Source: Phocaeicola oris
GTDB lineage: Bacteria > Bacteroidota > Bacteroidia > Bacteroidales > Bacteroidaceae
Reading direction: 5' to 3'
Assembly (NCBI RefSeq): GCF_021295095.1
Contig: NZ_JAJLQX010000014.1
Span: 1 to 64,000 of the forward strand
Length of the DNA stretch: 64,000 nucleotides
Part shown: positions 9,888 through 63,571 of the stretch, piece after piece
How positions within the stretch are numbered: the stretch's first letter is position 1
Layout of the letters: each line of letters starts with the position of its first letter
Notes under the pieces: generated by a model
The model's database searches: none
What the model saw: the letters and a program-made list of their open reading frames with translations, nothing else
What the model was told of the DNA's origin: nothing
Made by a program: the position numbers and the translations under genes

Positions 9888-10048
9888 AAAAGTGATACGG
9901 ACGAGCTGCTAAAATGATGCGGATGAGTTACTCAGTTCATGCGGACGAGTTGATCGATTCATGCGGATGAGTTGAGCAACTCATACGTATGAGTTAGATG
10001 ATTTATACGGATCACTTTGCCGGTTTATCTGTATCTCTTTTTAAAGAG
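9888..10048. repeat. 22-bp repeat array A (about 7 units)
   Basis: Unit starts fall at 9895, 9917, 9939, 9961, 9983, 10005 and 10027, a strict 22-bp period. The best units begin ATGCGGATGAGTTG and end in TC; the last two are degenerate. The left edge reads AAAAGTGATACGG (9888-9900) and the right side ATACGGATCACTTT (10005-10018), so the array is flanked by inverted versions of its own edge. It lies between the GH27 gene and the susC promoter. Confidence 0.9.
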
Positions 10049-10294
10049 GTCTTGATTGAGGTTTTGTCTCAACAATATCGCACAAGTGAGCTTTATAATT
10101 TGAATATAACTTTTCTATCATCGTTTCTGATATTTGTATTTTCATCGCATTTAAAGATTTGATTTTCATAAACTTAATTATCATATATATATTAAGAGAT
10201 ATTGGAAATTATGAAAGGCTATTTTATGATTTTTATTTATTATGGGTTAAAAAACTTGTTTTATTTGTTGAATAGGAAAAAAATAAAAAAGATC

Positions 10295-10324
10295 TTGATA
10301 TTTAGAAAAGTTCCTGTATTTTTG
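10295..10324 (+). promoter_or_regulatory. Putative susCD promoter
   Basis: TTG at 10295-10297 and a perfect TAnnTTTG box (TATTTTTG, 10317-10324) are separated by 19 bp, fitting the Bacteroidota -33/-7 layout. Transcription would begin near 10331, giving a ~190-nt leader before the ATG at 10521. Confidence 0.55.
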
Positions 10325-10520
10325 TGAAAATATGTAGTGTGAGTGAATACTTATATATTGCTTAAGTATAAATAAGAACAGCTAAAGTCATGTTTTACAA
10401 AAGATTGACTTTTAAGGAAAGAAAGGGTTCTGATCGGGTGGGATGAAGCTAATACTTGTATGTCGTTAAAAAAAATTAAGGTAGTATAATGATTAAATTA
10501 TTAATTATTTGAGCGAAGTT

Positions 10521-13500
10521 ATGAGAAAAAAGACGTTGTTAGGTAAGTCCACCCTAAGAACAAAGAAATGGACATCTAATTTTGTGAGAGTTTCATTCTT
10601 AATGGCTCTCGTTTGCTTTGCACAACACCCAGTTTATGCAGAGAAATTTGATAGCACTCCTGAGGGGGTTAATCTTACTCAGCAAACCAAGAAAAGAGTA
10701 ACCGGTCGTGTTGTTGATAGTAATGGCGAAGCAGTTATTGGCGCAAGTATCCTTGAAAAAGGAACATCTAACGGAACAATTACCGATTACGATGGAAACT
10801 TCTCTTTGGAAGTACATGGCAATGCTACATTAGAGGTATCTTTCGTAGGTTATAAGACCCAGCAAATAGGAGTCAGTGGTAAAACTGCGTTAAATATAAC
10901 TCTTGTAGAAGACTCTGAATCTTTGGAAGAGGTTGTAGTCGTTGGTTATGCTGTTCAGAAGAAAGCTAATCTGTCCGGTGCCGTTGCAACTGCCGATACC
11001 AAGAAATTGGATGACCGTCCTATTTCAAATGTCGGTATAGCATTGCAAGGTGCTGTTGCCAACTTAAACATTGATCCAACTTCTGGTGACCCTAATGATT
11101 TACCTTCATTTAATATTCGTGGTTTTACATCTATCAACGGAGGTTCTCCTTTGGTTGTTATTGATGGCGTGATTTCAGATGCTACCGAATTGAACCATTT
11201 GAATCCGGCCGACATTGAGAATATTTCTGTCTTGAAAGATGCTGCTTCATCTGCTATTTATGGTTCTCGTGCTGCTTACGGTGTTATTTTGGTTACTACT
11301 AAGACAGGTAAGTCAGAAAAGGTTACTGTCAACTATAATGGTAATATTGATTTCCGAGGATTGACTGTCACTCCGGAATACCTTTCCGATGTAAATGCAT
11401 TCTTCCGTGATAGAAACCAAGCAGAGACAGGCAATCCGAATGCAGGTTCTTGGCCGACAGAAATGTTTGACGCAATTGCTGCATGGAAAGCAGATAAGAG
11501 CAAACCGAATTATTTTTATCATTCTGCATGGGACGAGTACTTTTACTTTGATTATTTTAATCCTGCTAAGACTTATATCAAGAACAATGCATTTACGCAG
11601 AATCATAATATTAATCTTTCCGGTAAGACTGAGCGAGTGAACTATTATGTTTCCGGTAACTATCAGAATCAAGATGGCATGATTAAGTATGGCAGAAATG
11701 ATTATGCTCAATATAATACACGCGCTAAATTGGATATTCAAGTCACTCCTTGGTGGAAAGTTAGTACTAATACCAGTATGATATCTACTGAATATAAGAC
11801 AAGTAGTTATTATTTGGATAAACATGATGATAAACGTAAAAATCAATGGGGGTATGGTACTGTTATTGAAAGTTTGCTTTCTGCAATTCAATTTGGTCCA
11901 TATTATAAATGTCCGGAGAATGGAATCGTTTATGATTGGGCTACTCAAGTAGGTTACTTGGTTGATGGAGGTAATGCAAAGAAACATGATACGACGATTA
12001 ATCAGCAGTTTTCTACTCGTATTGATTTTATCAAAGATGTTCTTTTCTTTAATGGGACATACAACTTTTCTCTTCAAAAAGTTGCTACTGATAAGGCGTA
12101 TCTTCCTTTTGCAGGTACGGGTGGTTTTGATTCCGGCGGATGGATAAATCAGGAAGTCTCTTCAGCAAGTTCAACCAATGCTCGTGTGAGACATATCACA
12201 TGGGATATGTATGGAACATTTCATAAGAAATTTACTAATTTGCATGACGTGACAGCAATAATTGGTTTCAATCAAGAATCGTATCGTTATAATTCACAGT
12301 ATGGATTTCGTGATCATCTGATTACTACTTCCGTTCCTTCTTATAATTTGGCTTATGGAACTCAAACAGTAAATGAAGAAACTATTACTTGGGCATTGCG
12401 TGGTTTATATGGTCGTTTAGGTTATATCTTCAACGATAAATATATCGCTGAATTTAATTTCCGTCGTGATATGACTTCGCGGTTCCCACACGCCAGCCGT
12501 ACCGTATTCAATCCTTCGGGATCTGTCGCATGGATTGTTTCAAATGAGGCTTTTTTCGAGCCATTGAAGAGTATTGTTGATCAGTTCAAGATTCGTGGAT
12601 CTTATGGTCGTTTGGGTAATCAGGACGTTGACGCGTATGCTTATATCGCCACTATGTACGCTGGAACAAATACCGGCATTAATTTAGGAGGCTCTTATCC
12701 TATGTACGTAGGAACTCCGGGATTAGTTGCCGGTAATTTAACTTGGGAGAAGGTGACAACAGCCGATATAGGTATTGATTTAGCTTTCTTGAATAATCGT
12801 TTAACTTTCACGGGTGACATTTATCGTCGTGATACAAAAGATATGTTGACAACTCAAGCTCGTGATCTTCCTTCTGTTTTAGGTACAAGTGTTCCAAAAG
12901 AGAATGCGGCGAACTTAAAAACCATTGGTTGGGATGCTACGTTGGGCTGGAGAGATCAGTTTAACTTAGCTGGTAAGCCGTTCAATTACAATATTGATTT
13001 GAATATGTCTGACGCATGGGCGGAGATTACAAAAGTAGCCAATTCAACCGGTTCTTTGGATTCTTATTATGTAGGGCAGCGGATTGGTGAAATTTGGGGC
13101 TTAAACACCTTAGGGCTTTTTGCTTCTAATGAAGAAGCTGTCAACTGGGCAGATCAGTCTGAGCTTTTGTATCAAGCGGGTAAATATCCTCAATCAGCAG
13201 GTACTATAAAATGGGAGGATCGTAATGACGATGGCAAGATTACAAGAGGAGCATATACTTTAGATGATCATGGTGATTTATATAAAATAGGTAACTCATC
13301 TATTCGCTACCGTTTTGGTATCACGTTGGGAGCTCAATGGAACAACTTCGATGTTACTGCGTTTTTCCAAGGAGTTTTGAAACATCAATATTATCCTACA
13401 TGGTATGACAGGTTCTTCTGGGGTATGTATAGTATTAGTTGGTATGCCGAGCCATTATCAAATTATACTGATCGTTGGACTGAAGAGAATCAGGATACAA

Positions 13501-13808
13501 GTAAATACTTCCCTAAATTATGTCAAGGCAATGCCCACTCTGAAACGAAAGAGTTAGGTGCTCCCCAGACTCGTTACTTGCAAAATGCTGCTTATATTCG
13601 ACTGAAGAACTTACAGATAGGTTATACCATTCCTAAATCTGTTTTAGGTAAACTCCCTATTCAAAGAATTAGAGTTTACTACTCTGGAGAGAACTTGTTC
13701 ACTTGTTCGGGCTTATATGATGGTTATAAAGCCGATCCTGAGAACTTGGGCTGGGAATATTACCCAATTCAGAAACATCATTCTTTTGGTGTTAATGTTA
13801 CATTCTAA
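10521..13808 (+). CDS. SusC-like TonB-dependent outer-membrane transporter
   Basis: 1095 residues from ATG 10521 (MRKKTLLG); an in-frame TTG 12 bp upstream is a less likely start. A long signal region ending in PVYAEKF is followed by a CarboxypepD-regulatory-like domain (GRVVDSNGEAVIGASI), the SusC signature EEVVVVGYAVQKK, a plug with VVIDGV and SVLKDAASSAIYGSRAAYGV, and a C-terminal 22-strand barrel ending in Phe. SusC proteins import oligosaccharides or peptides with a SusD lid using TonB energy. susD follows after 18 bp. No dedicated sigma/anti-sigma pair or hybrid regulator adjoins, so the substrate is unknown; the GH27 gene upstream hints at alpha-galactosides. Confidence 0.95.
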   Translation: MRKKTLLGKSTLRTKKWTSNFVRVSFLMALVCFAQHPVYAEKFDSTPEGVNLTQQTKKRVTGRVVDSNGEAVIGASILEKGTSNGTITDYDGNFSLEVHGNATLEVSFVGYKTQQIGVSGKTALNITLVEDSESLEEVVVVGYAVQKKANLSGAVATADTKKLDDRPISNVGIALQGAVANLNIDPTSGDPNDLPSFNIRGFTSINGGSPLVVIDGVISDATELNHLNPADIENISVLKDAASSAIYGSRAAYGVILVTTKTGKSEKVTVNYNGNIDFRGLTVTPEYLSDVNAFFRDRNQAETGNPNAGSWPTEMFDAIAAWKADKSKPNYFYHSAWDEYFYFDYFNPAKTYIKNNAFTQNHNINLSGKTERVNYYVSGNYQNQDGMIKYGRNDYAQYNTRAKLDIQVTPWWKVSTNTSMISTEYKTSSYYLDKHDDKRKNQWGYGTVIESLLSAIQFGPYYKCPENGIVYDWATQVGYLVDGGNAKKHDTTINQQFSTRIDFIKDVLFFNGTYNFSLQKVATDKAYLPFAGTGGFDSGGWINQEVSSASSTNARVRHITWDMYGTFHKKFTNLHDVTAIIGFNQESYRYNSQYGFRDHLITTSVPSYNLAYGTQTVNEETITWALRGLYGRLGYIFNDKYIAEFNFRRDMTSRFPHASRTVFNPSGSVAWIVSNEAFFEPLKSIVDQFKIRGSYGRLGNQDVDAYAYIATMYAGTNTGINLGGSYPMYVGTPGLVAGNLTWEKVTTADIGIDLAFLNNRLTFTGDIYRRDTKDMLTTQARDLPSVLGTSVPKENAANLKTIGWDATLGWRDQFNLAGKPFNYNIDLNMSDAWAEITKVANSTGSLDSYYVGQRIGEIWGLNTLGLFASNEEAVNWADQSELLYQAGKYPQSAGTIKWEDRNDDGKITRGAYTLDDHGDLYKIGNSSIRYRFGITLGAQWNNFDVTAFFQGVLKHQYYPTWYDRFFWGMYSISWYAEPLSNYTDRWTEENQDTSKYFPKLCQGNAHSETKELGAPQTRYLQNAAYIRLKNLQIGYTIPKSVLGKLPIQRIRVYYSGENLFTCSGLYDGYKADPENLGWEYYPIQKHHSFGVNVTF

Positions 13809-13826
13809 CCAATAAAATTTAGGAAA

Positions 13827-15611
13827 ATGAAAAAGATATATTTAATCATATTTGCTCTTACAGGCTTGTTGATGACAAGTTGTAATGATTCTTTCCTTGA
13901 TCAGAAACCGGAAACTTCAATTACTGAAACAAGTTTCTTTAAGACTGACGCTGATTTGGAGTTGTATTCTAATGGTTTCTATCCATATTATTATGTGGGA
14001 ACAAATACATCTGCTGCCATAGCGGATTCTCCGTCGGATAATGTTGTAGTTGGTAATACGACGGACGGTTTGTACAGGTTCATGTCCGGCGCTGTTAACG
14101 CGAATAATATTGGTAAATGGGATTGGAGTTCGATTCGTGTAGTTAATTTTATGATTGCGCGTATGGGTAATGCCTCTGGTGCTAAAGCTAATCATTATAA
14201 AGGCTTTGCACGTTTAACTCGTGCTATGTTTTATTATGATAAAGTCAGAACGTATTCTGATGTACCTTGGTATAGTCGCGATTTGCAGACAAATGATGAT
14301 GACCTGCTTTATAAAACTCAAGACTCACGTGCAATGGTGGTCGATTCAATCGTCGCTGATTTGAATTATGCCATTGAGAACATGAAACCTGCCGGTGAGC
14401 TGGGGGATCATGTTCATATTTCTAAGGATGCAGCTATAGCTCTTAAGGCTCGTATCTGTTTGGAAGAGGCTTCTTGGCGCAAGTACCATGCCGAGCTTGG
14501 TTTAAGTGATGCTAATACTTATTATCAGTTTGCTATTGATGCATGCGAACAGTTAATGACTATGGGGTATTCTTTGTCTTCCGATTATGGCGGTTTCTTC
14601 CGTAATACTTCTCTTGCAGGTAATCCGGAAGCTATCCTTTATCGCGATTATGATAGAGGTATGGGCATCATGTGGTGGTACAGCGGAGGCTTTTCGGGTG
14701 GTAATTACGGAGCTTCAAAAGACTTGTTTGACTCTTATCTTTATTTGAAGGATAATGGTACTGCTATGCCTTATACTTCTGTTGACGGTTATAATGTTAA
14801 GTCATACGTAGAAGGATTTAAGAATCGCGACCCACGGTTAGGGGCAACATTTATTTATCCGGGATTTATTCGTCCGGGAAATGAAATTCCGTATGTTCAG
14901 TATATTAATCAGGTTGAAGGCTATAATCTTCAGAAATACGAGCCCATGAAAAATGGTGAGAATGTTTCGGGGTATGGTTCAGGTAATACGTGCTTTGGTG
15001 ATATCTCCTTGTTCCGTTATGCGGAGATTCTTCTGATTTATGCTGAAGCCAAGGCAGAAATGGGAACTTTAGAACAGTCTGATTTGGATAAGACAATCAA
15101 TTTGCTTCGTGTACGTGCAGGTATGCCTACGGCACAGCTTTCCGATTGGTTAAGTAATATAGATCCTGTATTGAAAGCAAAATATTCTAATGTAAGTTCT
15201 TCACAAGAAGGTGCTGTTCTCGAAGTTCGTCGTGAGCGTCGTGTTGAGCTGGCATTCGAAGGTTTTCGTAGGGCTGATTTGTTCAGATGGGCAATGGGTA
15301 AGACATTCGAGGATCAGGGTAAAGGAATTTATGTGGGTACTACATTCCCTGCGGAAATTGACTTGACCGGTGACGGAAAAGCTGATGTAGCTATTGTTTC
15401 TTCTCAGGCTGAAAAGGAAGCAGAAGTTGCTAAAGGATTAGCTGTTTACATTATTGATGTTGACGGCATTAATGTATCAACAGACGGATTTATAGAACCG
15501 ACAGACAAAAAAGGTATATATACATTCGATACAAAATGTTACTATACTCCAATCAGTTCTCAGGATATGGTGGTTAATCCTAATTTGAAGCAAAATCCTA
15601 ATTGGAACTAA
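13827..15611 (+). CDS. SusD-like nutrient-binding lipoprotein
   Basis: 594 residues. The signal MKKIYLIIFALTGLLMTSC gives lipidated Cys19, followed by the SusD-typical SFLDQKPETSI. RagB/SusD features include the N-terminal TPR-like region (ARLTRAMFYYDKV) and the C-terminal block with FRYAEILLIYAEAKAE, INLLRVRAGM and RRERRVELAFEGFRRADLFRW. It sits on the cell surface as the lid of the SusC barrel. It shares a transcript with susC and is closed by a strong terminator. No glycoside hydrolase follows, unusual for a full polysaccharide utilisation locus. Substrate unknown. Confidence 0.95.
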   Translation: MKKIYLIIFALTGLLMTSCNDSFLDQKPETSITETSFFKTDADLELYSNGFYPYYYVGTNTSAAIADSPSDNVVVGNTTDGLYRFMSGAVNANNIGKWDWSSIRVVNFMIARMGNASGAKANHYKGFARLTRAMFYYDKVRTYSDVPWYSRDLQTNDDDLLYKTQDSRAMVVDSIVADLNYAIENMKPAGELGDHVHISKDAAIALKARICLEEASWRKYHAELGLSDANTYYQFAIDACEQLMTMGYSLSSDYGGFFRNTSLAGNPEAILYRDYDRGMGIMWWYSGGFSGGNYGASKDLFDSYLYLKDNGTAMPYTSVDGYNVKSYVEGFKNRDPRLGATFIYPGFIRPGNEIPYVQYINQVEGYNLQKYEPMKNGENVSGYGSGNTCFGDISLFRYAEILLIYAEAKAEMGTLEQSDLDKTINLLRVRAGMPTAQLSDWLSNIDPVLKAKYSNVSSSQEGAVLEVRRERRVELAFEGFRRADLFRWAMGKTFEDQGKGIYVGTTFPAEIDLTGDGKADVAIVSSQAEKEAEVAKGLAVYIIDVDGINVSTDGFIEPTDKKGIYTFDTKCYYTPISSQDMVVNPNLKQNPNWN

Positions 15612-15632
15612 TTAGTTTTTGATTTATATTTT

Positions 15633-15670
15633 GAATCCCGACTCACAAAAGAGCTGGGATTCTTTTTTTT
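15633..15670 (+). terminator. Intrinsic terminator after susD
   Basis: A GAATCCC arm (15633-15639) pairs with GGGATTC (15656-15662) and is followed by eight T. It ends the susCD transcript. Confidence 0.85.
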
Positions 15671-15710
15671 CTTACCTTAACATATCGGTCATAAAACTTA
15701 ATTAACGTGA

Positions 15711-16020
15711 GTTCGATGAATTATAAGTACTTGTAAATTGGGTGATTAGCGAAATTTGTTGTAACTTTATAGTGTTAAAATCCAAAGAATTACAAACAAA
15801 AATCGCTATGATCACCGAGAACAAAGTTACTGAAATCTTTTGTATGGCAGACGATTTCTGTAAGTTTTTTGACGCTATGATGGCAACATATACCATAAAA
15901 CCGGTTCACAAGAGGAAATATCATCGCTCTTCCACGATGTCAAAGGCAGAAATTATGCTGATAATGATTCTCTTTCATGATTCCGACTATCGCTGTCTGA
16001 AGCATTTCTATCTTGAGAAG
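15711..16020 (+). mobile_element. Truncated IS982-family element, left part
   Basis: The segment holds a non-coding left end and the first ~70 codons of an IS982-type transposase, then stops abruptly where an IS4-type fragment begins (16015-16022). The exact left end was not determined; it lies between the susD terminator and about 15745. A similar left-end sequence appears at 18543-18600. Confidence 0.6.
15808..16020 (+). pseudogene. IS982-family transposase, N-terminal fragment
   Basis: From ATG 15808 the frame reads MITENKVTEIFCMADDFCKF, then HRSSTMSKAEIMLIMILFH and YRCLKHFYLE, the conserved N-terminal part of Bacteroidota IS982 transposases. Full proteins are near 300 residues with a DDE catalytic core; only about 70 remain and none of the core is left. 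After LEKV the frame runs into antisense IS4 sequence, so the longer open frame to 16251 is an artefact of the junction. Non-functional. Confidence 0.8.
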
Positions 16021-16740
16021 GTATGCCTTCATCTTCGTAACATAGCACACGTCCTCTTCCGTCAGTCGTTGGAATTGGGCCATGTCAATGTATGCACGAT
16101 CGATAGCCAGATTGGATCCTTTGGGCAGATGCACCTCCTTGAGCAGGTAATGGTCGTGCTTGGCCGCCGATGTGAGCTGTACAACCATCGGCAGCCCCAC
16201 ATGATACTTCATTATCGTATGCACTTTCATGCCCCCTTTCTTCTTTCCTGATTTCGGATGGCGTCCTACTCCCTTGAGGATGTTGTCAAAGAGAGTGATG
16301 GTGGTTGAATCCATCATGTACAACAGCTTTTCCCAGTCCTTCGGCTCGTGAGTCTGTCCTTTATGGCTCTTGGGAGGGCGACTGTCCGCTAAAAATTTGG
16401 CATACTTCTCCAACAGGTAGGAATATACCTTGGCGAAGTACTCCTGGGGACGGCGGATATTGGCTTCAGCAAGCGTGCTGAGGCGCACAAGATAGTCCAT
16501 GCCAAGGTGCCGGAGTTTGTGGGCCTCAGCCTTCATCCCTATCTCCAGTTCACGCAGAGAATCAAAGTGTTTCAATATGCCGAAAAGCATAACAACCAAG
16601 TGCCGATACCCGTCGAAACGCTTCACATAAGCCTCACTTCCGGGAGTCTCGCGACTGATTTGCGTGATTTTCTCGCGATCAAGTAACTTTAACACCTGAC
16701 TATAAACCGGCTCTCCGAAGAAATTGCTATCTTTGCTCAT
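16018..16740 (-). pseudogene. IS4-family (DUF4372) transposase, C-terminally truncated
   Basis: From ATG 16740 it reads MSKDSNFFGEPVYSQVLKLL, then YVKRFDGYRHLVVMLFGIL, the catalytic MMDSTTITLFDN with the first Asp, KGGMKVHTIMKY, and LAIDRAYIDMAQF with the second Asp. This is the DUF4372 N-terminus plus DDE domain of Bacteroides-type IS4 transposases, normally ~380-400 residues. After VCYVTKMK (~240) the sequence leaves the family at the junction, so the last catalytic Glu region is missing. It should be inactive. The open frame continues to 15940 in antisense IS982 sequence. Confidence 0.8.
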
Positions 16741-16768
16741 GATTATGCTTTTGTTGTTATGCTAAAAA

Positions 16769-16776
16769 CAAAGATA
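16769..16776 (-). promoter_or_regulatory. -7 box of the IS4 transposase
   Basis: The minus strand reads TATCTTTG, a perfect TAnnTTTG element, about 29 bp before the transposase start. The element's own promoter is retained although the gene is broken. Confidence 0.5.
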
Positions 16777-16782
16777 ATCAAA

Positions 16783-16814
16783 AGGGCTGATATCTCGTGA
16801 GAAATGTCAGCCCT
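16783..16814. terminator. Hairpin at the IS4 element end
   Basis: Arms AGGGCTGA (16783-16790) and TCAGCCCT (16807-16814) are perfectly complementary with a 16-base loop, flanked by A/T-rich DNA on both sides. It lies just outside the transposase promoter, where insertion sequences often block incoming transcription. Its role here is inferred. Confidence 0.55.
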
Positions 16815-17116
16815 AAATTTTATTTGTGAAAAGGTTTACCGGACAGCAATGATTTGATAGGAAACTTTCTCCTTTTCGTTATTGATGAAAGACTTTGTTC
16901 TTTCTTTTTTAGGTAGAAAGTTATTATTTATATTATTATTATATTCTTATTTAACTTGTTTGTAATTAGCGCAATGGTATCTTTTAATCTTTGTTTAATG
17001 TCTGAAGTGAAACCTAAGCAAAATACTTTTTTCAAAATATTTCTTTTTATCTGTACTATTTTCAATTTTGTGGTGTCTAAAGAGTAGAAATTAATAACAA
17101 ATTTAAATTATAGATT
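16815..17116 (+). other. AT-rich spacer before the first sigma module
   Basis: About 300 bases with no recognisable gene. The first ~45 bases may still be the end of the IS4-type element. The rest is very AT-rich, includes runs of TATTATTAT, and probably carries the promoter of the gene at 17117, though no perfect TAnnTTTG box was found. Confidence 0.5.
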
Positions 17117-17530: not shown

Positions 17531-17533
17531 TCA

Positions 17534-18507: not shown

Positions 18508-18542
18508 TTCTTTAGACAGAGATGTGTATGAAACATAAACAA

Positions 18543-18620: not shown

Positions 18621-18742
18621 AAAGTGATACGTATAAACAAGTCGGCTCATCTATATGAGCTGGCAAATACTTCTGATGAATCAGGAAACCAAACCTATCC
18701 GCATCTCTTCCCACACTTCTATGTATCGTAGCAGCAGCTTAT
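18621..18742. repeat. 22-bp repeat array B, degenerate
   Basis: AAAGTGATACGTAT (18621-18634) opens the array as in the other copies. Units begin at 18627 and 18649; later ones (ATCCGCATCTC at 18696, ATGTATCG near 18720) are recognisable but out of exact phase by a few bases. An eroded copy of the family. Confidence 0.65.
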
Positions 18743-18869
18743 ATGGTTGTGTTCTGATTAGTTTTATAAAACTCTCTATAATTAAGTTAAAACCCGATTC
18801 TATTTAGCTTAATAGATTGCATTTCTTTCTCTTTTTCTATAATTTTACCCGAAAAATATAGGTGATAGC

Positions 18870-31659: not shown

Positions 31660-31999
31660 AGTTGTAATTTGATATCGAGTAAGGAAATAGACATTTTCTT
31701 AAGAAAGCACTATAGGTCTGTAAGTCCTTAAATAATAGGCATATAAGTTCAAAATGCTACATATTGCAAATCTATATCTTGTACAATGCGTATGACCAAG
31801 TGAAGTGATACGCATCAGTTAGTCAACTCATCCGTATGAATTGCTCAACTCATGCGGATGAGTTGTTCGATTCATACGGATCATTTTTGTAATTCATCCG
31901 TATGGCTTTCTGAAGTGATGCCCATCCTTTTGAATATTGATATTCGACATCTTGACATTAGATAAAAATAAATTCGGAAATTCTCTAAGAATCAATCTA
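31660..31999. other. 340-bp spacer between convergent genes
   Basis: No gene. It separates the rightward YgjP-like gene from the leftward exo/endonuclease-phosphatase gene. About half is the 22-bp repeat array C (31786-31939); the rest is AT-rich with no clear T-tailed terminator, so the array may take that role. Confidence 0.7.
31786..31939. repeat. 22-bp repeat array C (7 units)
   Basis: Unit starts at 31786, 31808, 31830, 31852, 31874, 31896 and 31918, an exact 22-bp period. Units 3 and 4 join as CAACTCATGCGGATGAGTTG, a perfect 8-bp inverted repeat around GCGG. The left side carries GAAGTGATACG and the right ATACGGATCATTTTTG, the same bracketing as array A. It lies between convergent genes. 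Confidence 0.9.
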
Positions 32000-44140: not shown

Positions 44141-44174
44141 AAAGTGATACGTATGAATTCATTCTCATCACTCT
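44141..44174. repeat. 22-bp repeat family, single short copy D
   Basis: AAAGTGATACGTATG (44141-44155) and CTCATCACTCT (44162-44172) form an inverted pair around GAATTCAT, the shortest version of the family. It fills the whole gap between the convergent rnhB and copA genes and overlaps the copA stop. Confidence 0.6.
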
Positions 44175-50761: not shown

Positions 50762-50994
50762 TATAGTTGTTCTTATATATCAGTAAACAAAGATATATAA
50801 AAGTATCATCGAATGGTTTATCACCCGGAATCTTTAAGTTTTTTTTTGTTTGTTCGCAATTATTAAGAAAAAGAATAGAAAACTTACTTGTTATTAGCTG
50901 ATTCCATTCCCCAACAGCATTCAAATAGATGCACATCGCTATGCAAAGTCATATAGTTGAATAACAAAAGAAATCAGTATCAATCGCCCAACTC

Positions 50995-51148
50995 ATACAT
51001 ATAATTTAATTGTTTCACAGATGTGATTCACTTGTTTCACAGATGTGATTCACTTGTTTCACAGATGTGATTCACTTGTTTCACAGATGTGATTCACTTG
51101 TTTCACATAAGTGATTCAATTGTTTCACACAAGTGAAACAAGAAAATC
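50995..51148. repeat. 22-bp repeat array F, variant with identical units
   Basis: Units start at 50995, 51017, 51039, 51061, 51083, 51105 and 51127. The first reads ATACATATAATT and is preceded by CAACTC, tying it to the other arrays. Units 2-5 are identical copies of another sequence (ACAGATGTGATTCACTTG plus TTTC); units 6 and 7 are diverged. The same period and phase as the other arrays, but a different unit that has spread as exact copies. Confidence 0.85.
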
Positions 51149-54864: not shown

Positions 54865-56403
54865 TTATTTATCCAAAATCAAATCATGCCCGGTCATATC
54901 CTTCGGTTGCGGCATTCCCATTACATGAAGAATAGAAGGGGCAACATCGGCAAGCACTCCGCTCTCTACCTTTACGTTCTTATTGGCCGTGACATAAACA
55001 AACGGAACGGGATTCAGAGAGTGGGCTGTATTAGGAGTACCATCTTCATTGATAGCGTGATCGGCATTACCATGATCAGCGATAATGATAACCTCGTAAT
55101 CATTAGCCTTGGCAGCCTCTACAGTATCTTTCACACAAGCATCGATAGCAACAACTGCTTTCTGAATAGCTTCATAAACACCCGTATGACCTACCATATC
55201 GCCATTAGCATAATTGACTACAATAAAATCGTATTTTGCAGAGTTGATAGCATCTACCAACTTATCCTTTACCTCGTAGGCACTCATCTCAGGCTTCAAA
55301 TCATAAGTAGCCACCTTTGGAGAAGGAACAAGAATACGATCCTCTCCCGAGAACGGAGCTTCGCGCCCACCATTGAAGAAGAATGTAACATGTGCATACT
55401 TCTCTGTTTCAGCAATATGCAACTGCTTTTTAGTGTTATTGGAAAGATACTCTGCCAACGTATTCTGAACATCTTCCTTATTAAAGATGATATGCACACC
55501 CTGAAACGAAGCATCGTATGGAGTCATGCAATAATACTGCAAGTCAGGAATAACGTGCATCCCCTCTTCCGGCATATCTTTCTGAGTCAAAACAGAAGTG
55601 ATTTCTTTTGCACGGTCGTTACGGTAGTTGAAGAAGATAACCACATCACCCGGTTTAATACGTCCATCAACATTCTTATTAACTAACGGTTCCATGAACT
55701 CATCGGTATCTTTATTCTCCTCGGTATCGCGGGCATAACAATCACGCACAGCTTGAACCATATCAACTTCCTCACGTCCCTTGCCTTCCACCAATTGATC
55801 ATAGGCAATCTTCAGGCGATTCCATCGCTTATCACGATCCATAGCATAAAAACGACCGATAATAGAAGCGATATGAGCACCATTCTTCTCACAGACATCT
55901 GTGAGAGACTCAATATAAGTAACACCACTCTTAGGATCGGTATCACGACCATCCATAAAACAGTGAACGTATGTCTTTTCACCTACGCCATACTCTCCGG
56001 CTATGTCAACTAACTTAAAGAGGTGTGTCAGCGAAGAGTGAACGCCACCGGTTGAAGTCAGTCCCATGATATGCAGTCCACAACCATGTTCCTTAGCATA
56101 CGAGTAAGCAGAAATGATTTCAGGATTCTTCATGATGCTGTTGTCGGCACACGCACGGTTAATCTTAACCAAATCCTGATAAACGATTCGGCCTGCGCCG
56201 ATATTTAAGTGGCCAACCTCAGAGTTTCCCATTTGTCCGTCAGGAAGACCGACGCTTTCACCACAAGCAAGCAACTGAGAATGTGGATAATCTGCTAATA
56301 AACTGTCCCAATAAGGAGTTGGTGTACACCAAATAGCATCATCTTTCTTATGATCGCCAAGACCCCAACCATCAAGAATCATCAAAAGCGCTTTTTTAGC
56401 CAT
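54865..56403 (-). CDS. gpmI: 2,3-bisphosphoglycerate-independent phosphoglycerate mutase
   Basis: 512 residues from ATG 56403 ([16 protein letters not shown]); the frame runs 42 codons further upstream from a TTG without family support, crossing the promoter region. Metal and active-site motifs: [19 protein letters not shown] with the catalytic Ser (~64), [24 protein letters not shown]-like NYRNDRAKE and ADHGNADHA. It interconverts 3- and 2-phosphoglycerate with two Mn2+. Bacteroidales use this form in glycolysis. Divergent from fucI. Confidence 0.96.
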
Positions 56404-56444
56404 AATTTTATCTGTATTTAAAGTAATATCCTTCAAAGAAATTG

Positions 56445-56452
56445 CAAAGTTA
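56445..56452 (-). promoter_or_regulatory. -7 box for gpmI
   Basis: The minus strand reads TAACTTTG, a TAnnTTTG box 42 bp before ATG 56403. It excludes the upstream TTG start. Confidence 0.5.
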
Positions 56453-56539
56453 CGAAAAAGCAAACGAATATAATAGAAAAACAAGGCGTATATTAACTTA
56501 AATTTTCTTATAATTGTGTTGTATAACACTATTTCTATA

Positions 56540-56570
56540 TTGCTCTTCCGACTTAAATTGAGTTTCTTTG
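56540..56570 (+). promoter_or_regulatory. Putative fucI promoter
   Basis: TTG (56540-56542) and TTTCTTTG (56563-56570, one mismatch to TAnnTTTG) are 20 bp apart. Start near 56577, leader ~30 nt. Confidence 0.4.
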
Positions 56571-56606
56571 CCTAACAAAAAGAAAAACAATTAATATCAA
56601 AAAGAT

Positions 56607-58379
56607 ATGAAGCATCCAAAGATTGGTATTCGTCCCACTATTGACGGTCGCCAGGGAGGAGTACGTGAGAGCCTTGAAGACAAGACGATGGCATTGGCAC
56701 ATGCCGTTTCCAATTTAATTTCCAAGAATTTATACTATAGAGATGGTACTCCTGTAGAATGTATCATAGCTGATGGTACTATCGGTCGTGTTGCCGAAAG
56801 TGCTGCCTGTGCCGATAAATTTGAGCATGCCGGTGTAGGCGGAACCATTACCGTTACCTCTTGTTGGTGCTACGGTTCTGAAACTATTGACATGAACCCG
56901 TACTGGCCAAAAGCCGTATGGGGATTTAATGGGACAGAACGCCCGGGAGCTGTTTATCTGGCTTGCGCTCTGGCTGCCTATGCACAGAAAGGTCTTCCTG
57001 CATACGGTATCTACGGACACAACGTTCAGGACTTAGACGATAATACCATCCCTACTGATGTGGCAGAGAAGATTCTCCGGTTCGCCAAGGCTGCCGTTGC
57101 AGTAGCAGAAATGAGAGGCGAGTCTTATCTGTCAATAGGCAGCGTGACCATGGGCATCGCCGGTTCAATGGTCGACAACGATTTCTTTCAAACTTACTTA
57201 GGCATGCGTAACGAAAACGTTGATGAGGTAGAGATACTCCGCCGAATGGATGAGGGAATCTATGATCATGACGAATACAAAAAAGCCATGACGTGGGTAG
57301 AAAAATACTGTAAGCCTAACGAAGGATGGGATAAAAACCGTCCGGAGAAGACCAAAACCCGTGAACAGAAAGAAGCGGATTGGGACTTCATCGTTAAAAT
57401 GACACTCATTGTAAAGGATTTGATGCATGGTAACCCCAAACTGTTGGATATGGGATTCAAAGAAGAATCTTTGGGACACAACGCTTTGGCTGCCGGCTTC
57501 CAAGGTCAGCGTCAATGGACCGATTGGAAACCAAATGGTGACTTTACTGAAGCTATTCTGAACACTTCATTCGATTGGAATGGTCTTCGCGAAGCTTACC
57601 CGTTTGCTACAGAAAACGACTCTTTAAACTGCACAGCGATGTTACTCGCACACCTGATTACAAATCAGGCACAAATATTCAGCGATGTGCGTACTTATTG
57701 GAGTCCGAAAGCTGTTAAGCGAGTTACAGGAAAAGAACTGACCGGTATAGCTGCCAATGGGATTATCCATCTGATAAACTCAGGTGCTACCACACTGGAT
57801 GGCACAGGTCAAAGCTCTGATGCTAACGGCAATCCTGTTATGAAGAAATTCTGGGAAATGACCGACGATGATGTAAAAGGTTGCCTTAAAGCTACATCAT
57901 GGATGCCGGCCGACCGCGACTACTTCCGTGGTGGTGGCTTCAGCTCACATTTCCTTACCAGAGGTGAAATGCCTGCTACCATGATGCGTGTCAATATCAT
58001 CAAGGGACTGGGCCCTGTACTTCAAATTGCTGAAGGTTGGATAGTCAACATCGATCCCGAAATCCATCAAATTCTTGATAAACGTACAGATCCTACATGG
58101 CCAACTACATGGTTTACTCCACGCCTGGATCCGGCAAAGGATGCTTTCAAAGATGTATACTCCGTTATGAATAACTGGGGTGCTAACCACGGAGCCATCA
58201 CTTACGGGCATATTGGCGCAGATATGATCACATTAGCTTCCATGCTTCGTATCCCTGTTTGCCTACATAACGTGAAAGAGAGCGATATCTTCCGCCCTGC
58301 TGCATGGAACGCATTTGGCATGGACAAGGAAGGTCAGGATTATCGTGCATGTGCCAACTACGGACCAATTTATAAATAA
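56607..58379 (+). CDS. fucI: L-fucose isomerase
   Basis: 590 residues, normal for FucI. Typical segments: [47 protein letters not shown], and [15 protein letters not shown] near the end. A Mn2+-dependent ketol isomerase giving L-fuculose from L-fucose (and D-ribulose from D-arabinose). fucP follows after 77 bp. The kinase (fucK) and aldolase (fucA) that should follow in the pathway are not in the window. Confidence 0.96.
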
Positions 58380-58397
58380 CCTGTAGAAACATACCAC

Positions 58398-58434
58398 AAA
58401 GGGACGAATCATTTACGTTCGTCCCTTTATTTCT
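58398..58434 (+). terminator. Hairpin between fucI and fucP
   Basis: AAAGGGACGAA (58398-58408) and TTCGTCCCTTT (58418-58428) form a perfect 11-bp stem with a 9-base loop, followed by ATTTCTTT. Either partial termination setting a fucI:fucP ratio, or the end of the fucI transcript. Confidence 0.75.
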
Positions 58435-58456
58435 TTACCATGAAATAATTTACACA

Positions 58457-59755
58457 ATGGATAAAACCAAACTTATAGAGAAGAAATATCTCCTTATTTT
58501 CATTCTCATCACCACATTGTTTGCTCTCTGGGGATTTGCTAATGATATTACCAACCCTATGGTCGCTGCTTTCCAAACAGTGATGGAAATCTCCGCGGCT
58601 AAAGCTTCGCTCGTTCAGTTTGCATTTTATGGCGGTTACGCTACCATGGCTATTCCTGCTGCGCTCTTTATCCGCAAATATAGTTATAAGAGCGGTATCC
58701 TGCTGGGATTGGCTCTTTATGCAATCGGAGCCTTTCTGTTCATCCCTGCCGCACAATATCAACAGTTCTCATTCTTTTGCATTTCTCTTTATGTGTTGAC
58801 TTTCGGTCTGGCTTTTTTGGAGACTACAGCTAATCCATTTATCCTTTCTTTAGGTGCAAAGAAAACAGCTACCCGTCGTCTGAATTTGTCTCAATCTTTC
58901 AATCCTATGGGATCTTTGGTTGGCATGAGCGTCGCTTCTTTTGTGGTACTCCCACAACTGATTTCTGATAAGCGTGATGCTATGGGAAATATTATTTTCC
59001 CAACATTAGACGCAACAGAGAAAATCGGAATTCGTGTTCATGATCTGAGCATTATTCGAAATCCATATGTAGCTATTGGCTGTGTAGTACTGATGATGTT
59101 CATTATTATCGCTCTTACAAGGGTTCCTAAGACAGACATTCAACCGGAACAAACTAATAGTACAAAGCAAACATTAAAGAATCTATGGAATAATCACGCA
59201 TATCGCGAAGGAGTCATTACCCAGATGTTCTATGTAGCAGCACAGATTATGGTATGGACATTTATCATCCAATATGCAGATAATCTTGGTATCAATAAGG
59301 CTACCGCACAGACATACAATATCATCGCAATGTGTCTCTTCCTTTGTGGTAGATTTATAGCTACGGCACTGATGAAATATGTCAATACCCGTAAGTTATT
59401 GGCTATCTTTGCTGCCTGTGCAGGATTATGTACTATCGGAGCAATCGGCATTGTCGGTATGGGTGGGTTATATTGTCTGATTGGAATCAGTGCTTTCATG
59501 TCATTAATGTTTCCAACCATCTATGGCATTGCTTTAGAACATGTTGACAATCAGGATGCCAGTCTGGGTGCCGCTTTCTTGGTTGAGGCTATCGTAGGTG
59601 GTGCCATCATGCCTCCTTTGCAGGGGATGATCATTGATCAGCACACCATTCTCGGTCATCCCGCAGTAAACGTATCCTATGTTCTTCCACTTATTTGCTT
59701 TATGGTCGTATTCACTTACGGAATGAAAAGATATAAAGAATCAAGAATGGATTAA
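58457..59755 (+). CDS. fucP: L-fucose permease, MFS family
   Basis: 432 residues with 12 hydrophobic segments. FucP-type signatures: LFALWGFANDITNPMVAAF (helix 1, with the proton-coupling Asp), FYGGYATMAIPAALFIRKYS and FLETTANPFILSLG. L-fucose:H+ symport into the cytosol. It follows fucI and delivers that enzyme's substrate. Bacteroidota FucP relatives also carry other sugars; the fucI neighbour makes fucose most likely. Confidence 0.92.
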   Translation: MDKTKLIEKKYLLIFILITTLFALWGFANDITNPMVAAFQTVMEISAAKASLVQFAFYGGYATMAIPAALFIRKYSYKSGILLGLALYAIGAFLFIPAAQYQQFSFFCISLYVLTFGLAFLETTANPFILSLGAKKTATRRLNLSQSFNPMGSLVGMSVASFVVLPQLISDKRDAMGNIIFPTLDATEKIGIRVHDLSIIRNPYVAIGCVVLMMFIIIALTRVPKTDIQPEQTNSTKQTLKNLWNNHAYREGVITQMFYVAAQIMVWTFIIQYADNLGINKATAQTYNIIAMCLFLCGRFIATALMKYVNTRKLLAIFAACAGLCTIGAIGIVGMGGLYCLIGISAFMSLMFPTIYGIALEHVDNQDASLGAAFLVEAIVGGAIMPPLQGMIIDQHTILGHPAVNVSYVLPLICFMVVFTYGMKRYKESRMD

Positions 59756-60062
59756 AGTTCCAGAATTTAGAGAATTATTCGCTGACATATCCTTGATTCA
59801 TCCTAAATAAACGTTACATAATTTAAGGTAAAAGTAGCATAAAAGAATGTGTATCATTGACCGGTTTAAGCATGTACTAAATTTATTTCTTCAAAGTTAT
59901 CCTATTATAAAAAGAGTTCTTCAACCCATAGATAACAGCCTGGCAATAAAAAAATGTAATCAAAGTTACAAATTCTTATATCTTATGAGATTTTTTATTT
60001 ACAGATGATCTTTATATATCCAAAAAATAATACTATCTTTCGAAAAGAGAAAAAGAGTTTTT
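59756..60062 (+). other. 307-bp spacer before the XylR-like regulator
   Basis: AT-rich, no gene seen. A TATCTTTC string (one mismatch to TAnnTTTG) about 25 bp before ATG 60063 could be the regulator's -7 box. No terminator after fucP and no 22-bp repeat were found. Confidence 0.5.
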
Positions 60063-61217
60063 ATGTTAAAAGTACTTGTCTTAACTGATTTTTCGAGTAA
60101 CTATAGTCGGCTAATGCTTGAAGGAATGATCAGATATTCCCGAGAAGTCGGACCATGGGCATTCCTTAGGATGCCTCTTTACTATTTGATGATAAAAGGT
60201 GAATCCGGAGTTATTGATTTTGCGAAGAAATGGCATGCTGACGCAATTATTGCTCAGCTTCGGGATGTAAAAGTTGATTTATTGGAAAAATTAAAAATAC
60301 CTATTATCGTTCAGAATTATCGAGAAAGGAGTGGTATAATTACCAATCTTACGGGTGATTATTATGGAACAGGATTGATGGCTGCAGAATTTTTTTTAGA
60401 ACGAGGGTATCAGAATTTTGCATTCTACGGATACCGAAATGTTATATGGTCCAGAGAAAGGGGATTAGGTTATAAGGAAAGAATCGAGAAACAAGGTTAT
60501 GTTTGCCATTTTCTTGAAAACAATAATCATGATACAACAGAATGGCTTTATAATACAGAAATTATAGCAAAGTGGCTTCAGTCTTTACCAAAACCAATTG
60601 CATTGTTTGCTTGTGATGATTATTATGCGCAACAAATTACAGAGACTTGTAATGTTTTTGGTATTGAAGTTCCTGATGAAATCGCGATCCTTGGTGTAGA
60701 CAATGATACATTGTTATGCAATTTATCTACCCCCCCATTATCATCTATTTCTTTGGATATAGAAAATGGAGGTTACCGAGCCGCAAAGTTATTGAATCAA
60801 TATCTAAAGAAAGAAATTGATGAGATTCCTGATATAGTTATAAAACCTTTATATATAGAGAACAGAGCTTCTACAAACAAATATGCTGTTTCCGATTTAC
60901 ATATAAAGAAAATAATGAACTACATCAATGATAATTTTAGCAATAAAATAACAGTTCCCGATTTAGTTGCTCTTGTTCCTCTTTCTCGAAGAGTTTTGGA
61001 AAAAAGATTTAAAATGTTAACAGGAACATCTATCTATCAATATATTCTAAATGTTCGGATTAGTCATTTTACAAAATTGCTTTTAACTACAGATTTGTAT
61101 TTACCTGACGCTGCTATTAAATCCGGCTTTGATGATTATAAGAACATTTCTCGAATTTTCCGAAAATATAAATCTATGTCTCCTGTAGAATATAGAAAGC
61201 TTTATAAGAAAAATTAA
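60063..61217 (+). CDS. XylR-like sugar-sensing AraC transcription regulator
   Basis: 384 residues. Residues ~1-270 are a periplasmic-binding-protein/LacI-type sensor (VLVLTDFSSNYSRLMLEG, NLTGDYYGTGLMAAEFFL, EVPDEIAILGVDNDTLLC, PPLSSISLDIENGGYRAAKL). Residues ~283-384 are an AraC double helix-turn-helix (IKKIMNYINDNFSNKITVPDL, RRVLEKRFK, PVEYRKLY). This is the E. coli XylR build, which binds a sugar ligand and activates. Position between fucIP and nagAB suggests control of fucose or amino-sugar genes (inference). Confidence 0.88.
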   Translation: MLKVLVLTDFSSNYSRLMLEGMIRYSREVGPWAFLRMPLYYLMIKGESGVIDFAKKWHADAIIAQLRDVKVDLLEKLKIPIIVQNYRERSGIITNLTGDYYGTGLMAAEFFLERGYQNFAFYGYRNVIWSRERGLGYKERIEKQGYVCHFLENNNHDTTEWLYNTEIIAKWLQSLPKPIALFACDDYYAQQITETCNVFGIEVPDEIAILGVDNDTLLCNLSTPPLSSISLDIENGGYRAAKLLNQYLKKEIDEIPDIVIKPLYIENRASTNKYAVSDLHIKKIMNYINDNFSNKITVPDLVALVPLSRRVLEKRFKMLTGTSIYQYILNVRISHFTKLLLTTDLYLPDAAIKSGFDDYKNISRIFRKYKSMSPVEYRKLYKKN

Positions 61218-61318
61218 GCTTATTATAATCAAAGAAAGTTCTTGAAAACTTTGTTTCTTTTGACGTCAATTGACATCTCTCATTCGCATTATATTACTTA
61301 ATTGGCGAGACCGTTTAT

Positions 61319-61326
61319 TATCTTTG
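61319..61326 (+). promoter_or_regulatory. -7 box for nagAB
   Basis: TATCTTTG is a perfect TAnnTTTG box, 33 bp before the nagA ATG at 61360. Spacing to an upstream TTG (61302-61304) is shorter than usual, fitting an activator-dependent promoter. Confidence 0.5.
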
Positions 61327-61359
61327 TAAACAGTAAAAAGAATAAATTGTCGGTTTATA

Positions 61360-62547
61360 ATGAAATCTATTATCAAAAATGGGATATTAATCCTTCCGGG
61401 AGAAATAGAAGAAAATGGCTATGTTGTTTTTGAAGATGGTATAATCACTCAAATTGGAAAAGGACGTTATACCGGTCAAAATCCATTTGATGTAATTTAT
61501 GATGCAGATCAAGATTATATTTCCCCCGGCTTTATTGATATGCACACACATGGAGCAGGTGGTTATGATTTCATGGATAACACTATTGAAGCTTATTTAG
61601 GGATTGCTCATAAACATGCGGAACATGGGACGACAAGTTTAGTCCCAACGACATTAACCAGTACAATGGAAGAATTAATAAAAACTTTTGATATTTATGA
61701 ACAAGCAAAAAAAGAAAATATAAAAGGAGCAGATTTTCTTGGTCTGCATTTGGAAGGACCTTATTTTTCTTATAACCAAAGAGGAGCTCAAGACCCAAAA
61801 TACTTACGAAATCCGGAACCGGAAGAATATAATGAGATATTAAGAAGATCAAATAATATCATTCGTTGGAGTATAGCCCCGGAATTAAAAGGCGCTTTAG
61901 AATTAGGAGAAGTATTAAAATCCAAAGGAATCCTCGCGTCCATAGGGCACAGTGACGCTTTATATGATGAAGTTGTTAAGGCTCACGAGCATGGTTATAA
62001 TCATATAACTCACTTGTATTCCTGTATGTCAACCATTACTCGAAGAAACGCGTATCGATACGTGGGAGTCCTTGAAGCCGCATACATGATTGATGACATG
62101 AGCGTTGAAATAATCGCGGACGGTATACATGTCCCTCAGGCATTATTGCAATATGTATGCAAATTCAAACCTCATAATTTAATCGCTTTATGTACTGATT
62201 CTATGCGAGCTGCAGGTATGCCTGACGGAATATATAATATCGGAAGTTTAACTAATGGGCAAAAAGTGATAAAAGAAGACGGAGTAGCGAAATTACTTGA
62301 TCGTTCAGCTTTTGCCGGCAGTGTGGCCACATCCGATTTATTAGTGCGGACAATGATAAAATTAGCAGGATTATCAGTTCATAAAGCTGTTCAGATGATG
62401 TCCTATAATCCAAGTAGGATACTTGGTATAGATAACAAAAAAGGATCTCTGACCGTAGGTAAAGACGCGGATATTATTATTTTTGACAAAAACATAGATA
62501 TTCAAAAAACCTTTGTCAAGGGTAAAATGATTTATTCTAAAAATTAA
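61360..62547 (+). CDS. nagA: N-acetylglucosamine-6-phosphate deacetylase
   Basis: 395 residues, amidohydrolase fold. Metal and substrate motifs: FIDMHTHGAGGYDFMD (HxH), HLEGPYFS, GHSDALYDEV, HLYSCMSTI and LCTDSMRAAGMPDG. Removes acetate from GlcNAc-6-P to give glucosamine-6-P. nagB follows after 11 bp and takes the product. Preceded by the XylR-like regulator. Confidence 0.93.
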   Translation: MKSIIKNGILILPGEIEENGYVVFEDGIITQIGKGRYTGQNPFDVIYDADQDYISPGFIDMHTHGAGGYDFMDNTIEAYLGIAHKHAEHGTTSLVPTTLTSTMEELIKTFDIYEQAKKENIKGADFLGLHLEGPYFSYNQRGAQDPKYLRNPEPEEYNEILRRSNNIIRWSIAPELKGALELGEVLKSKGILASIGHSDALYDEVVKAHEHGYNHITHLYSCMSTITRRNAYRYVGVLEAAYMIDDMSVEIIADGIHVPQALLQYVCKFKPHNLIALCTDSMRAAGMPDGIYNIGSLTNGQKVIKEDGVAKLLDRSAFAGSVATSDLLVRTMIKLAGLSVHKAVQMMSYNPSRILGIDNKKGSLTVGKDADIIIFDKNIDIQKTFVKGKMIYSKN

Positions 62548-62558
62548 GATAACACACA

Positions 62559-63329
62559 ATGATTACATTTAAAAAAGACAAATTAAAAGTCGAATTATTT
62601 AATTCTACATTAGAAATGGCAGAAAAGGCTGCTGCTGATGTAGCGAGTAAAATTGTTGAGCTATTGAAAGTAAATGAAACAATCAACATGATTTTTGCCG
62701 CGGCACCTTCCCAAACTGAGTTTTTAAAAAGGCTCATTGAACATGATGAAATAGAATGGGGAAGAATAAATGCTTTTCATATGGATGAATATATTGGACT
62801 TCCGCCCGATGCTCCTCAACGTTTTGGAAACTTTTTGGAGAACGCTCTTTTTAGCTCTGTTCCATTGAAAAATGTATTTTATTTGGATGGCAATAAAACC
62901 ATAAATGCAGAATGTAAAAGATATGCAGAACTACTAAAGAAATACCCACCTCATATCGTTTGTTTAGGTATCGGGGAGAATGGGCATATTGCTTTTAATG
63001 ATCCTCATGTAGCTAAGTTCAATGATAAAAAAGTGGTAAAGCTTGTGACTTTAGATAATATTTGCCGTAAACAACAAGTTGATGATAAATGCTTTAATCG
63101 TATTGAGGATGTTCCTACTCAAGCCCTTACTTTAACAATTCCAACCCTGCTTCAAGGGGAATATATGTATTGCATTGTGCCTTATAAAACTAAAGCTGAT
63201 GCCATTTATAGAACTTTAAATGAAGAAATTTCCGAAAAATGTCCTGCTTCTATATTACGGACACAAGATAATACATTCCTTTACTTAGATAATGATAGCT
63301 CTGCATTATTAAATTTAAATAAAAAATAA
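62559..63329 (+). CDS. nagB: Glucosamine-6-phosphate deaminase-like protein
   Basis: 256 residues in the NagB/6-phosphogluconolactonase family. FHMDEYIGL (~73-81) carries the catalytic Asp and GIGENGHIAFNDP (~137-149) the His. Two differences from E. coli NagB: the Asp before Gly-His is Asn (also seen in Firmicute enzymes), and the Glu of FNEP is Asp. It should convert glucosamine-6-P to fructose-6-P and ammonia; because of the Asp and its short length, galactosamine-type or other 2-amino sugar phosphates are possible. In operon with nagA. Confidence 0.82.
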   Translation: MITFKKDKLKVELFNSTLEMAEKAAADVASKIVELLKVNETINMIFAAAPSQTEFLKRLIEHDEIEWGRINAFHMDEYIGLPPDAPQRFGNFLENALFSSVPLKNVFYLDGNKTINAECKRYAELLKKYPPHIVCLGIGENGHIAFNDPHVAKFNDKKVVKLVTLDNICRKQQVDDKCFNRIEDVPTQALTLTIPTLLQGEYMYCIVPYKTKADAIYRTLNEEISEKCPASILRTQDNTFLYLDNDSSALLNLNKK

Positions 63330-63417
63330 GATATGAGCATGTGAACTCCTATAATAGCGTAATTATTTGTTAATCTTGTGATTATTTCAAAGTGAAGCAT
63401 TATCTGTTTTTCCGGTT

Positions 63418-63571
63418 CGATTGATCGACTTCCAAAGGGACGGACATCACTTTATGAAACCATTTTGATGAGTTATAAAAGTGACACGTATAAGTTAGTC
63501 AATTGATGCGGATGAGTTGATCGACTCATACGTATCACTTTCCCAATACATCCGCATAACATTGAATAATC
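63418..63571. repeat. 22-bp repeat array E
   Basis: Clear units start at 63484, 63506, 63528 and 63550; earlier degenerate ones at 63440 and 63462 keep the phase. AAAAGTGACACGTAT (63477-63491) and ATACGTATCACTTT (63528-63541) bracket the core unit ATGCGGATGAGTTGATCG as inverted edges. It lies between the convergent nagB and pfkA genes. Confidence 0.88.

Follow-up and report, generated by a model that had tools for sequence, protein, structure and literature searches.

Intergenic arrays of 22-bp dyad units in Phocaeicola oris and their association with a probable IS982-mobilized miniature element

Introduction

What are the arrays of self-complementary 22-bp units that stand between the genes of a 64,000-nucleotide stretch of Phocaeicola oris DNA (RefSeq assembly GCF_021295095.1, contig NZ_JAJLQX010000014.1, positions 1 to 64,000, forward strand; hereafter the window)? 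An earlier note on this stretch had listed six such sites, A to F, and had offered nucleoid-protein binding, bidirectional termination, RNA processing or a non-autonomous mobile repeat as roles to consider. In the reading preferred here, to which a probability of about 0.6 is given as a whole, the window arrays would belong to one high-copy intergenic family of palindromic 22-bp units, with letters unseen in the relatives searched; its intact form would be a miniature inverted-repeat transposable element (MITE) mobilized by IS982, its old copies decayed and its copies homogenized by exchange. Genomes, contigs and loci are numbered with the prefixes G, C and L, and G000 is the genome of the window (2.98 Mb).

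The intact element

The intact form in G000 appears to be a MITE of ∼360–450 bp, consisting of a left arm, a 22-bp array and a right arm. Arm profiles, seeded from one copy and iterated on a sample of the same genome, gave 39 matches for the right arm and 30 for the left. Both arms terminate in ACGTGA(G/A)TTCGAYGAA and the ends are inverted, as they are in MITEs. The copies C3:4764, C4:68081, C12:42466 and C33:121856 were near-identical (97% identity for one pair) and lay in different flanking DNA. C33 had one whole 22-bp unit more and C12 one fewer, and the array thus expands and contracts by whole-unit steps. Target duplications of 7 bp were detected in five of eight two-ended candidates, three matching at 7/7 positions and two at 6/7; seven was the best duplication length, and the result was reached by 45 of 2000 shuffles. 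The inverted ends, the duplications, the near-identical copies at different sites and the presence of IS982 elements with the same ends are direct evidence for the suggested non-autonomous mobile repeat.

One of the five duplication-bearing candidates is a 648 bp fusion (G000:C1:1195-1842; L092, L113) in which an IS982 left end and ∼100 transposase codons run into a short array of 22-bp units, closed by the right arm of a MITE, the whole being flanked by a 6/7 duplication. It is possibly a step in the birth of the MITE, or else a recombinant or an assembly join.

The probable IS982-family partner

Homology links the left arm of the MITE to the right end of an IS982-family element. This right end contains a strong terminator-like hairpin (z −5.5), and z < −1.5 is retained in 7 of 18 MITE left arms (C12_59886 was excluded from the count as an IS end); no excess fold was found in the right arm (mean z −0.2, 21 copies). 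The homology takes in the terminator-like hairpin, and the right arm closes with the same inverted repeat. Remains of such an element lie in the window, adjoined by a second transposase frame:

15705..15720, + strand: IS982-family terminal repeat ACGTGAGTTCGATGAA, identical to the MITE ends
15808..16047, + strand: N-terminal part of an IS982-family transposase, truncated, sharing 94% identity with its counterpart on contig C1
15940..16740, − strand: IS4-type transposase frame (DUF4372 and DDE_Tnp_1) which truncates the IS982 piece; 88.5 bits with the IS4 model, below the cut-off of 115

The N-terminus of the C1 transposase gave a partial match to the IS982 model NF033520 (E 1.7e-6, 27.8 bits; the cut-off for the whole protein is 130). 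Complete elements of ∼1.03 kb, with an exact 12-mer end on both sides, were found in relatives, six in G159, two in G163 and one in G195, and the G159 transposase scored above the IS982 cut-off (250.7 versus 130 bits). Eleven relatives were searched for the exact 12-mer end; 9 carried it, and in none of them did two such ends stand at MITE-like spacing. In G000 itself 14 contig termini end within the IS982-family element, seven of left type and seven of right type, a pattern that the collapse of a multi-copy repeat would produce. The best plasmid matches of the element were from Prevotella, Phocaeicola, Parabacteroides and Bacteroides. The shared ends and the 7-bp target duplications suggest that an IS982 transposase supplied by other copies mobilizes the MITE.

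IS982 ends of the G000 type were also seen in another family of the order, at L169 (G491) and at L168 and L171 (G310), including a right end with a similar hairpin.

The arrays of the window

The 22-bp periodicity of the six sites was assessed by self-identity at lag 22, compared with the largest value from 500 shuffles. The sites, none of A, C, D, E and F being assigned a strand, are as follows:

A, 9888..10021: six units of the main letter-type, AAAAGTGAT to ATCACTTT, from the sequence as read and the period tests
B, 18621..18754, − strand: degraded copy of marginal periodicity that retains part of a left arm at 18711-18754 (E 3e-4)
C, 31803..31909: main letter-type, in the convergent gap between a YgjP-like peptidase gene and an Exo_endo_phos gene
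D, 44142..44174: lone exact end motif, no array
E, 50972..51148: second letter-type (TTTCACANNTGTGA-like), in a divergent gap; 5.8 copies by Tandem Repeats Finder
F, 63477..63557: main letter-type, in a convergent gap, with degenerate units upstream from ∼63418

Self-identity was above the shuffle maximum in A (0.66 against 0.36), C (0.63 against 0.39), E (0.87 against 0.39) and F (0.48 against 0.37, with 0.53 at lag 44); for A, C and E a 22-bp period was also returned by Tandem Repeats Finder. Possible degenerate units extend array A as far as 10048. Site B was marginal (0.38 against 0.37) and site D was not periodic (0.08 against 0.58). Four of the six sites first listed are therefore periodic arrays, with B weak and D a single motif. 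Site D amounts to one exact end motif, AAGTGATACGTATGA, at 44142-44156; on one side of it an RNase HII gene has its stop, and on the other a P-type ATPase gene ends. The consensus first given for all units, CAACTC-ATNCGNAT-GAGTTG-NN, describes the main letter-type but not array E, whose own unit is TTGTTTCACAGATGTGATTCAC, a second letter-type with the same period of 22. In an 803-kb sample of G000, 18 of 18 neighbours of this second type less than 150 bp apart were spaced by 22 bp. No match over the family gathering thresholds of Rfam was found in the window.

Several observations weigh against the preferred reading. No arm was recognizable at A, C, E or F, B giving the sole arm match of the window, so these four arrays are linked to the MITE through the letters and the end motif that they share with it. 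Among the 30 array clusters on contig C11 and the window, 19 were without a recognizable arm, seven had a right arm and four had both. Three of the eight two-ended candidates, the older ones, lacked a 7-bp duplication (1–3 of 7 positions matching), and one of the five with a duplication is the C1 fusion of an IS end to a MITE arm. The IS copies of G159 and G163 appear, by eye, to have duplications of 6 bp, and no complete IS982 was seen in the genome of the window. A comparison with empty sites was dropped as the relatives are too distant (∼64–75% identical in coding DNA). On the preferred reading, recognizable arms would be lost from old copies earlier than the array. Armless arrays matched the unit consensus less well than armed ones (0.849, n = 31, versus 0.889, n = 24; permutation p 0.005, with 3-kb loci excluded), which fits decay without proving it.

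Copy number and spread

The end pattern AAGTGATNCGNATGA, with one mismatch allowed, was found 206 times per strand in G000, and its reversed control once and not at all. On contig C11 (329 kb) 26 array clusters were counted, and 66 of the 412 end-pattern matches fall on its first 318 kb. Extrapolation from C11 gives an estimate of ∼235 arrays when scaled by length or ∼160 when scaled by pattern matches.

These letters were concentrated in G000. None of the other 150 genomes of the family sample had more than one exact end-pattern match per strand, and with one mismatch the other 60 genomes of the genus had 0–12 matches per strand, compared with 206 in G000. A DNA search with the whole element over 295 genomes of the order, in which two candidates were scored per genome, gave only end fragments elsewhere. 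In a named collection, from which records of the own genome were possibly excluded, 17 stretches from scattered taxa had one end-pattern match each; the Parabacteroides distasonis locus among them (L082) held no array. One search of plasmids gave a weak array match (E 3e-3) and an end fragment, and a second gave nothing.

Unit geometry and folding

Distances between unit matches in the 803-kb sample were 22 (176 cases), 44 (117), 66 (53), 88 (20), 110 (6) and 132 (3), with 11 distances off these multiples at 21, 43, 65 or 87. The units abut at this spacing, and the unique spacers between repeats which characterize a CRISPR array were not present. The palindromic nature of the units was confirmed, as 881 of 1328 arm positions were Watson–Crick paired in 166 arm-oriented units, and so was their potential to form hairpins. 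The mean z of 43 folded arrays was about −5 per strand, and z was below −2 on at least one strand in 42 and on both strands in 33.

The proposal that units vary by compensating changes, and hence that symmetry is selected, was not supported by arm shuffling or by mutual information. Among 329 distinct units, 1711 Watson–Crick pairs were observed, fewer than the 1765 ± 13 obtained when right arms were redealt, and 2150 pairs including G-U, fewer than 2169 ± 10. Symmetric columns of the unit alignment did not stand at the top of the mutual-information list. Despite this overall null result, the shuffles were exceeded at the central C-G of the core (z about +5) and, among the eight arm pairs, at one (z +3.3). 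An excess of G-U over A-C (260 versus 55) was considered as a sign of selection on RNA from one strand; this was dropped because two linked three-letter variants explain much of it and orientation relative to genes is unbiased.

Position relative to genes and transcription termination

Gene context was determined with a home-made gene finder on 13 stretches, most of which, besides C11 and the window, had been picked for holding matches. The arrays lay between genes, as the earlier note had it: 57 clusters were in gaps and four within predicted genes, all four being single units. Occupancy was greatest in convergent gaps (20/63), compared with divergent (10/75) and co-directional gaps (27/356). 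Of the 27 arrays in co-directional gaps, 23 lay closer to the stop codon of the upstream gene; the orientation was the same as that of the genes in 11, opposite in 15 and unknown in one.

Placement of this kind, together with strong folding on both strands, is what would be anticipated if the arrays were bidirectional transcription terminators of the host retained at the 3′ ends of genes. A terminator-like site on one strand was found in 19 of 75 arrays against ∼7 in shuffles, and one young MITE had two such sites against 0.3 in shuffles. However, 56 of the 75 arrays had no site, none had sites on both strands, and the stems lack covariation. Bidirectional termination as the main role was rejected on these grounds; the weak excess on one strand is what stands of the earlier proposal, and the terminator explanation as a whole is considered improbable. 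The location bias can be accounted for by selection against promoter damage, with which it fits and which requires no host function. MITE insertions in either orientation would persist chiefly in convergent gaps and on the 3′ sides of genes, consistent with selection against damaged promoters.

Dyad arrays in other genomes

A relaxed search detected, with a weak E value of 3e-3, a 22-bp array of similar skeleton on a Parabacteroides distasonis plasmid, beginning a few bases past the end of an annotated gene. A letter-poor pattern was then defined as three dyads TCA-N6-TGA at 22 bp, with the reversed pattern (AGT-N6-ACT every 22 bp) as control; being derived from G000 letters, it samples the class with that bias. 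Within the order, 9 of 393 genomes matched (per strand, G000 184, G032 29, G013 16, G488 6 and five genomes with 1), and the control matched three of 393 (G000 2, G288 1, G520 4). Within the family of P. oris, 64 of 399 genomes from 15 of 30 genera matched, 16 of them with at least 10 matches per strand; these are not counts of sites, because a long array yields several matches. The 22-bp array would appear to be wider than the MITE, other genomes of the family holding dyad arrays with other letters and no such arms.

When spacers of 6 to 16 were allowed, admitting periods of 18–28, 32 of 393 genomes matched, and the control also matched several, up to 9 times in G315. Among the matches listed, G000, G013, G032, G488, G283, G386 and G474 were all spaced 22 + 22 bp, and the remaining genomes other than G353 had single repeats of mixed period. 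In G353 the dyad repeats had a period of 21 and lay at two loci (L217, L218) that overlap open reading frames. The matches of G002 and G353 resemble coding repeats and were set aside.

These matches might be nothing other than unrelated tandem or inverted repeats, in which case there would be no wider class and 22 bp would not be special. The pattern was taken from G000, and a count by eye gave 23 of the 399 family genomes with matches to the reversed control (as many as 36 in G630), besides three of 393 in the order. Some matches are at a single locus, of another period or in open frames (G002, G353, G455), and counts overstate sites, those of G128 and of G790 each lying on one contig. Against this, by our own arithmetic the 18 fixed bases would give ∼5e-5 matches per 3-Mb genome, for pattern and control alike, and of 62 distinct arrays whose sequence was available, 60 of them from other genomes, 61 lay outside open frames of 100 codons. 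The control, moreover, shares the 22-bp dyad geometry and could catch arrays with other letters. We consider the absence of a wider class unlikely.

The reversed control was far above chance in G630, G728 and 21 other genomes, and its matches may be arrays of the same 22-bp geometry with other dyad letters.

By crude open-frame calls, the arrays of the 62-array set with two usable neighbours comprised 19 convergent, 18 divergent and 16 co-directional cases, and 11 of these 16 were closer to the upstream stop. Three of five arrays fetched from G013 (L208, L209, L211) adjoin, by eye, one other repeated end (the GTCAGCCCTG side of AATAATAAGTACTTAATAATCAATATTC...), a pattern that targeting of the arrays by a further mobile element could give.

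Arrays at orthologous loci

G032 and G614 belong to one other genus of the family; 8 and 10 loci, respectively, were fetched and all pairs compared. For L203/L247 and L205/L249 the flanking DNA was 86–88% identical on both sides, and for L206/L251 there was a 76% match on one side. The three orthologous array pairs aligned without gaps, and 88 of 108 dyad columns were identical, compared with 18 of 60 positions in the 10-nt spacers. Spacers of the G032 loci were AGTAGTTAAT/ATTAACTAGA-like in all eight, and those of G614 were ACGTCCGCGA/AAGCGGGCAT-like in nine of 10, L246 retaining the G032 type. At two of the three orthologous loci the order of spacer types differs (by eye). Orthologous arrays following the consensus of their own genome are probably a case of concerted evolution. 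Copy replacement within each genome is the simplest account, because the spacers differ at orthologous loci and each matches its own genome; on the other side, the intergenic flanks of the orthologous arrays are themselves only 48–81% identical. As letters are common within a genome yet differ at three orthologous loci, copies are probably kept alike by exchange; we infer that this would proceed by transposition or gene conversion.

At L246 (G614), in the right flank, the G032/G614 element has a conserved end which by eye resembles a terminator-like hairpin (AAACCCCTCT...AGAGGGGTTTTT) adjacent to the array.

The same observations may be read, more boldly, in terms of a class of intergenic arrays widespread in the family and defined by geometry, a dyad every 22 bp, with the letters at fixed loci changing together through a trans-acting factor and the MITE as one vehicle among several. 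Such a factor could be a DNA-binding protein, or a copying or homing enzyme, with a lineage-specific recognition sequence; this is offered tentatively. A narrower proposal is that the arrays are platforms for a fast-evolving, sequence-specific DNA-binding protein which needs a dyad per two helical turns. Each lineage would then have its own protein specificity, to which every array site of the genome conforms, and the MITE would be no more than one vehicle into which an array was taken up. The earlier note's point that the period spans about two helical turns has gained weight, since other lineages retain the period with different letters. The multi-site arrays of G000, G013, G032 and G488 kept to 22, among the matches listed, when 18–28 was allowed; arrays in G607, G646, G688 and G812 lack IS982 arms (by eye); letters are common within a genome and changed at the orthologous loci of another; and there is no strand bias relative to genes. 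No such protein was found, however, and none was searched for; tandem units of common ancestry hold their length without constraint, and the mobile context in G000 is clear. The binding platform is therefore viewed as doubtful, and exchange among copies of a probably IS982-mobilized MITE is retained as the more probable account of the G000 arrays.

Relation to known elements

The nearest precedent in kind is BrickBuilt of Porphyromonas gingivalis, with a 23-nt unit, 19 copies and ends GAGACCTTTGCA assigned to IS5 (PMC4596501). It is likewise a spacerless minisatellite in a MITE with leader and tail; it is intergenic, is predicted to fold into long stem-loops, gains and loses whole units, and has both ends intact in few copies (PMC4596501). 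The G000 element has the same order of leader, tandem array and tail in intergenic DNA, whereas its unit is 22 bp, its arrays number ∼160–235 and its ends, ACGTGAGTTCGA, are of IS982 type, so that unit length and ends differ from BrickBuilt. MITECca01 of Cardinium cOegib is the nearest IS982-derived MITE found, also mostly intergenic and with a lineage-specific burst (169 copies), but of ∼240 bp and with no tandem array described in the section on the element (PMC9769881). Small palindromic intergenic repeats of high copy number, single or grouped, are also known as REP/BIME, which carry GTAG or CGTC tags (PMC3733652, in part); the G000 unit consensus has neither tag, and its units follow one another at a constant 22 bp. 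A partner tyrosine transposase is a further mark of REP/RAYT repeats.

In open-licence papers neither these letters nor a class with a 22-bp period was found described. The class was not recognised in the earlier note; its kind has a published precedent in BrickBuilt (PMC4596501). The G000 element is of an already known kind, and the wider class behind it is less explained. Since it resembles BrickBuilt but has ends belonging to another transposase family and about ten times as many copies, a minisatellite within a MITE is not the oddity of one species. The wider class raises the questions of what holds dispersed letters alike within each genome and the 22-bp period alike across genomes; behind it there may be a novel factor that binds or copies DNA, in one of the major groups of gut-type bacteria. 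In G000 the partner IS stands at 14 contig termini, and the arrays could be used as markers of strains.

MITE239 of P. gingivalis has the end ACGTGAGTTCGATATAAAGGAA, whose first 12 letters are shared with the G000 ends, but is tied to ISPg3, listed as IS5, with no 22-bp array mentioned in the part of the paper that covers it (PMC4596501). Despite the IS5 listing, this end is nearly identical to IS982-family ends in the genus (ACGTGAGTTCGATATAAGGAA...; L133, L141).

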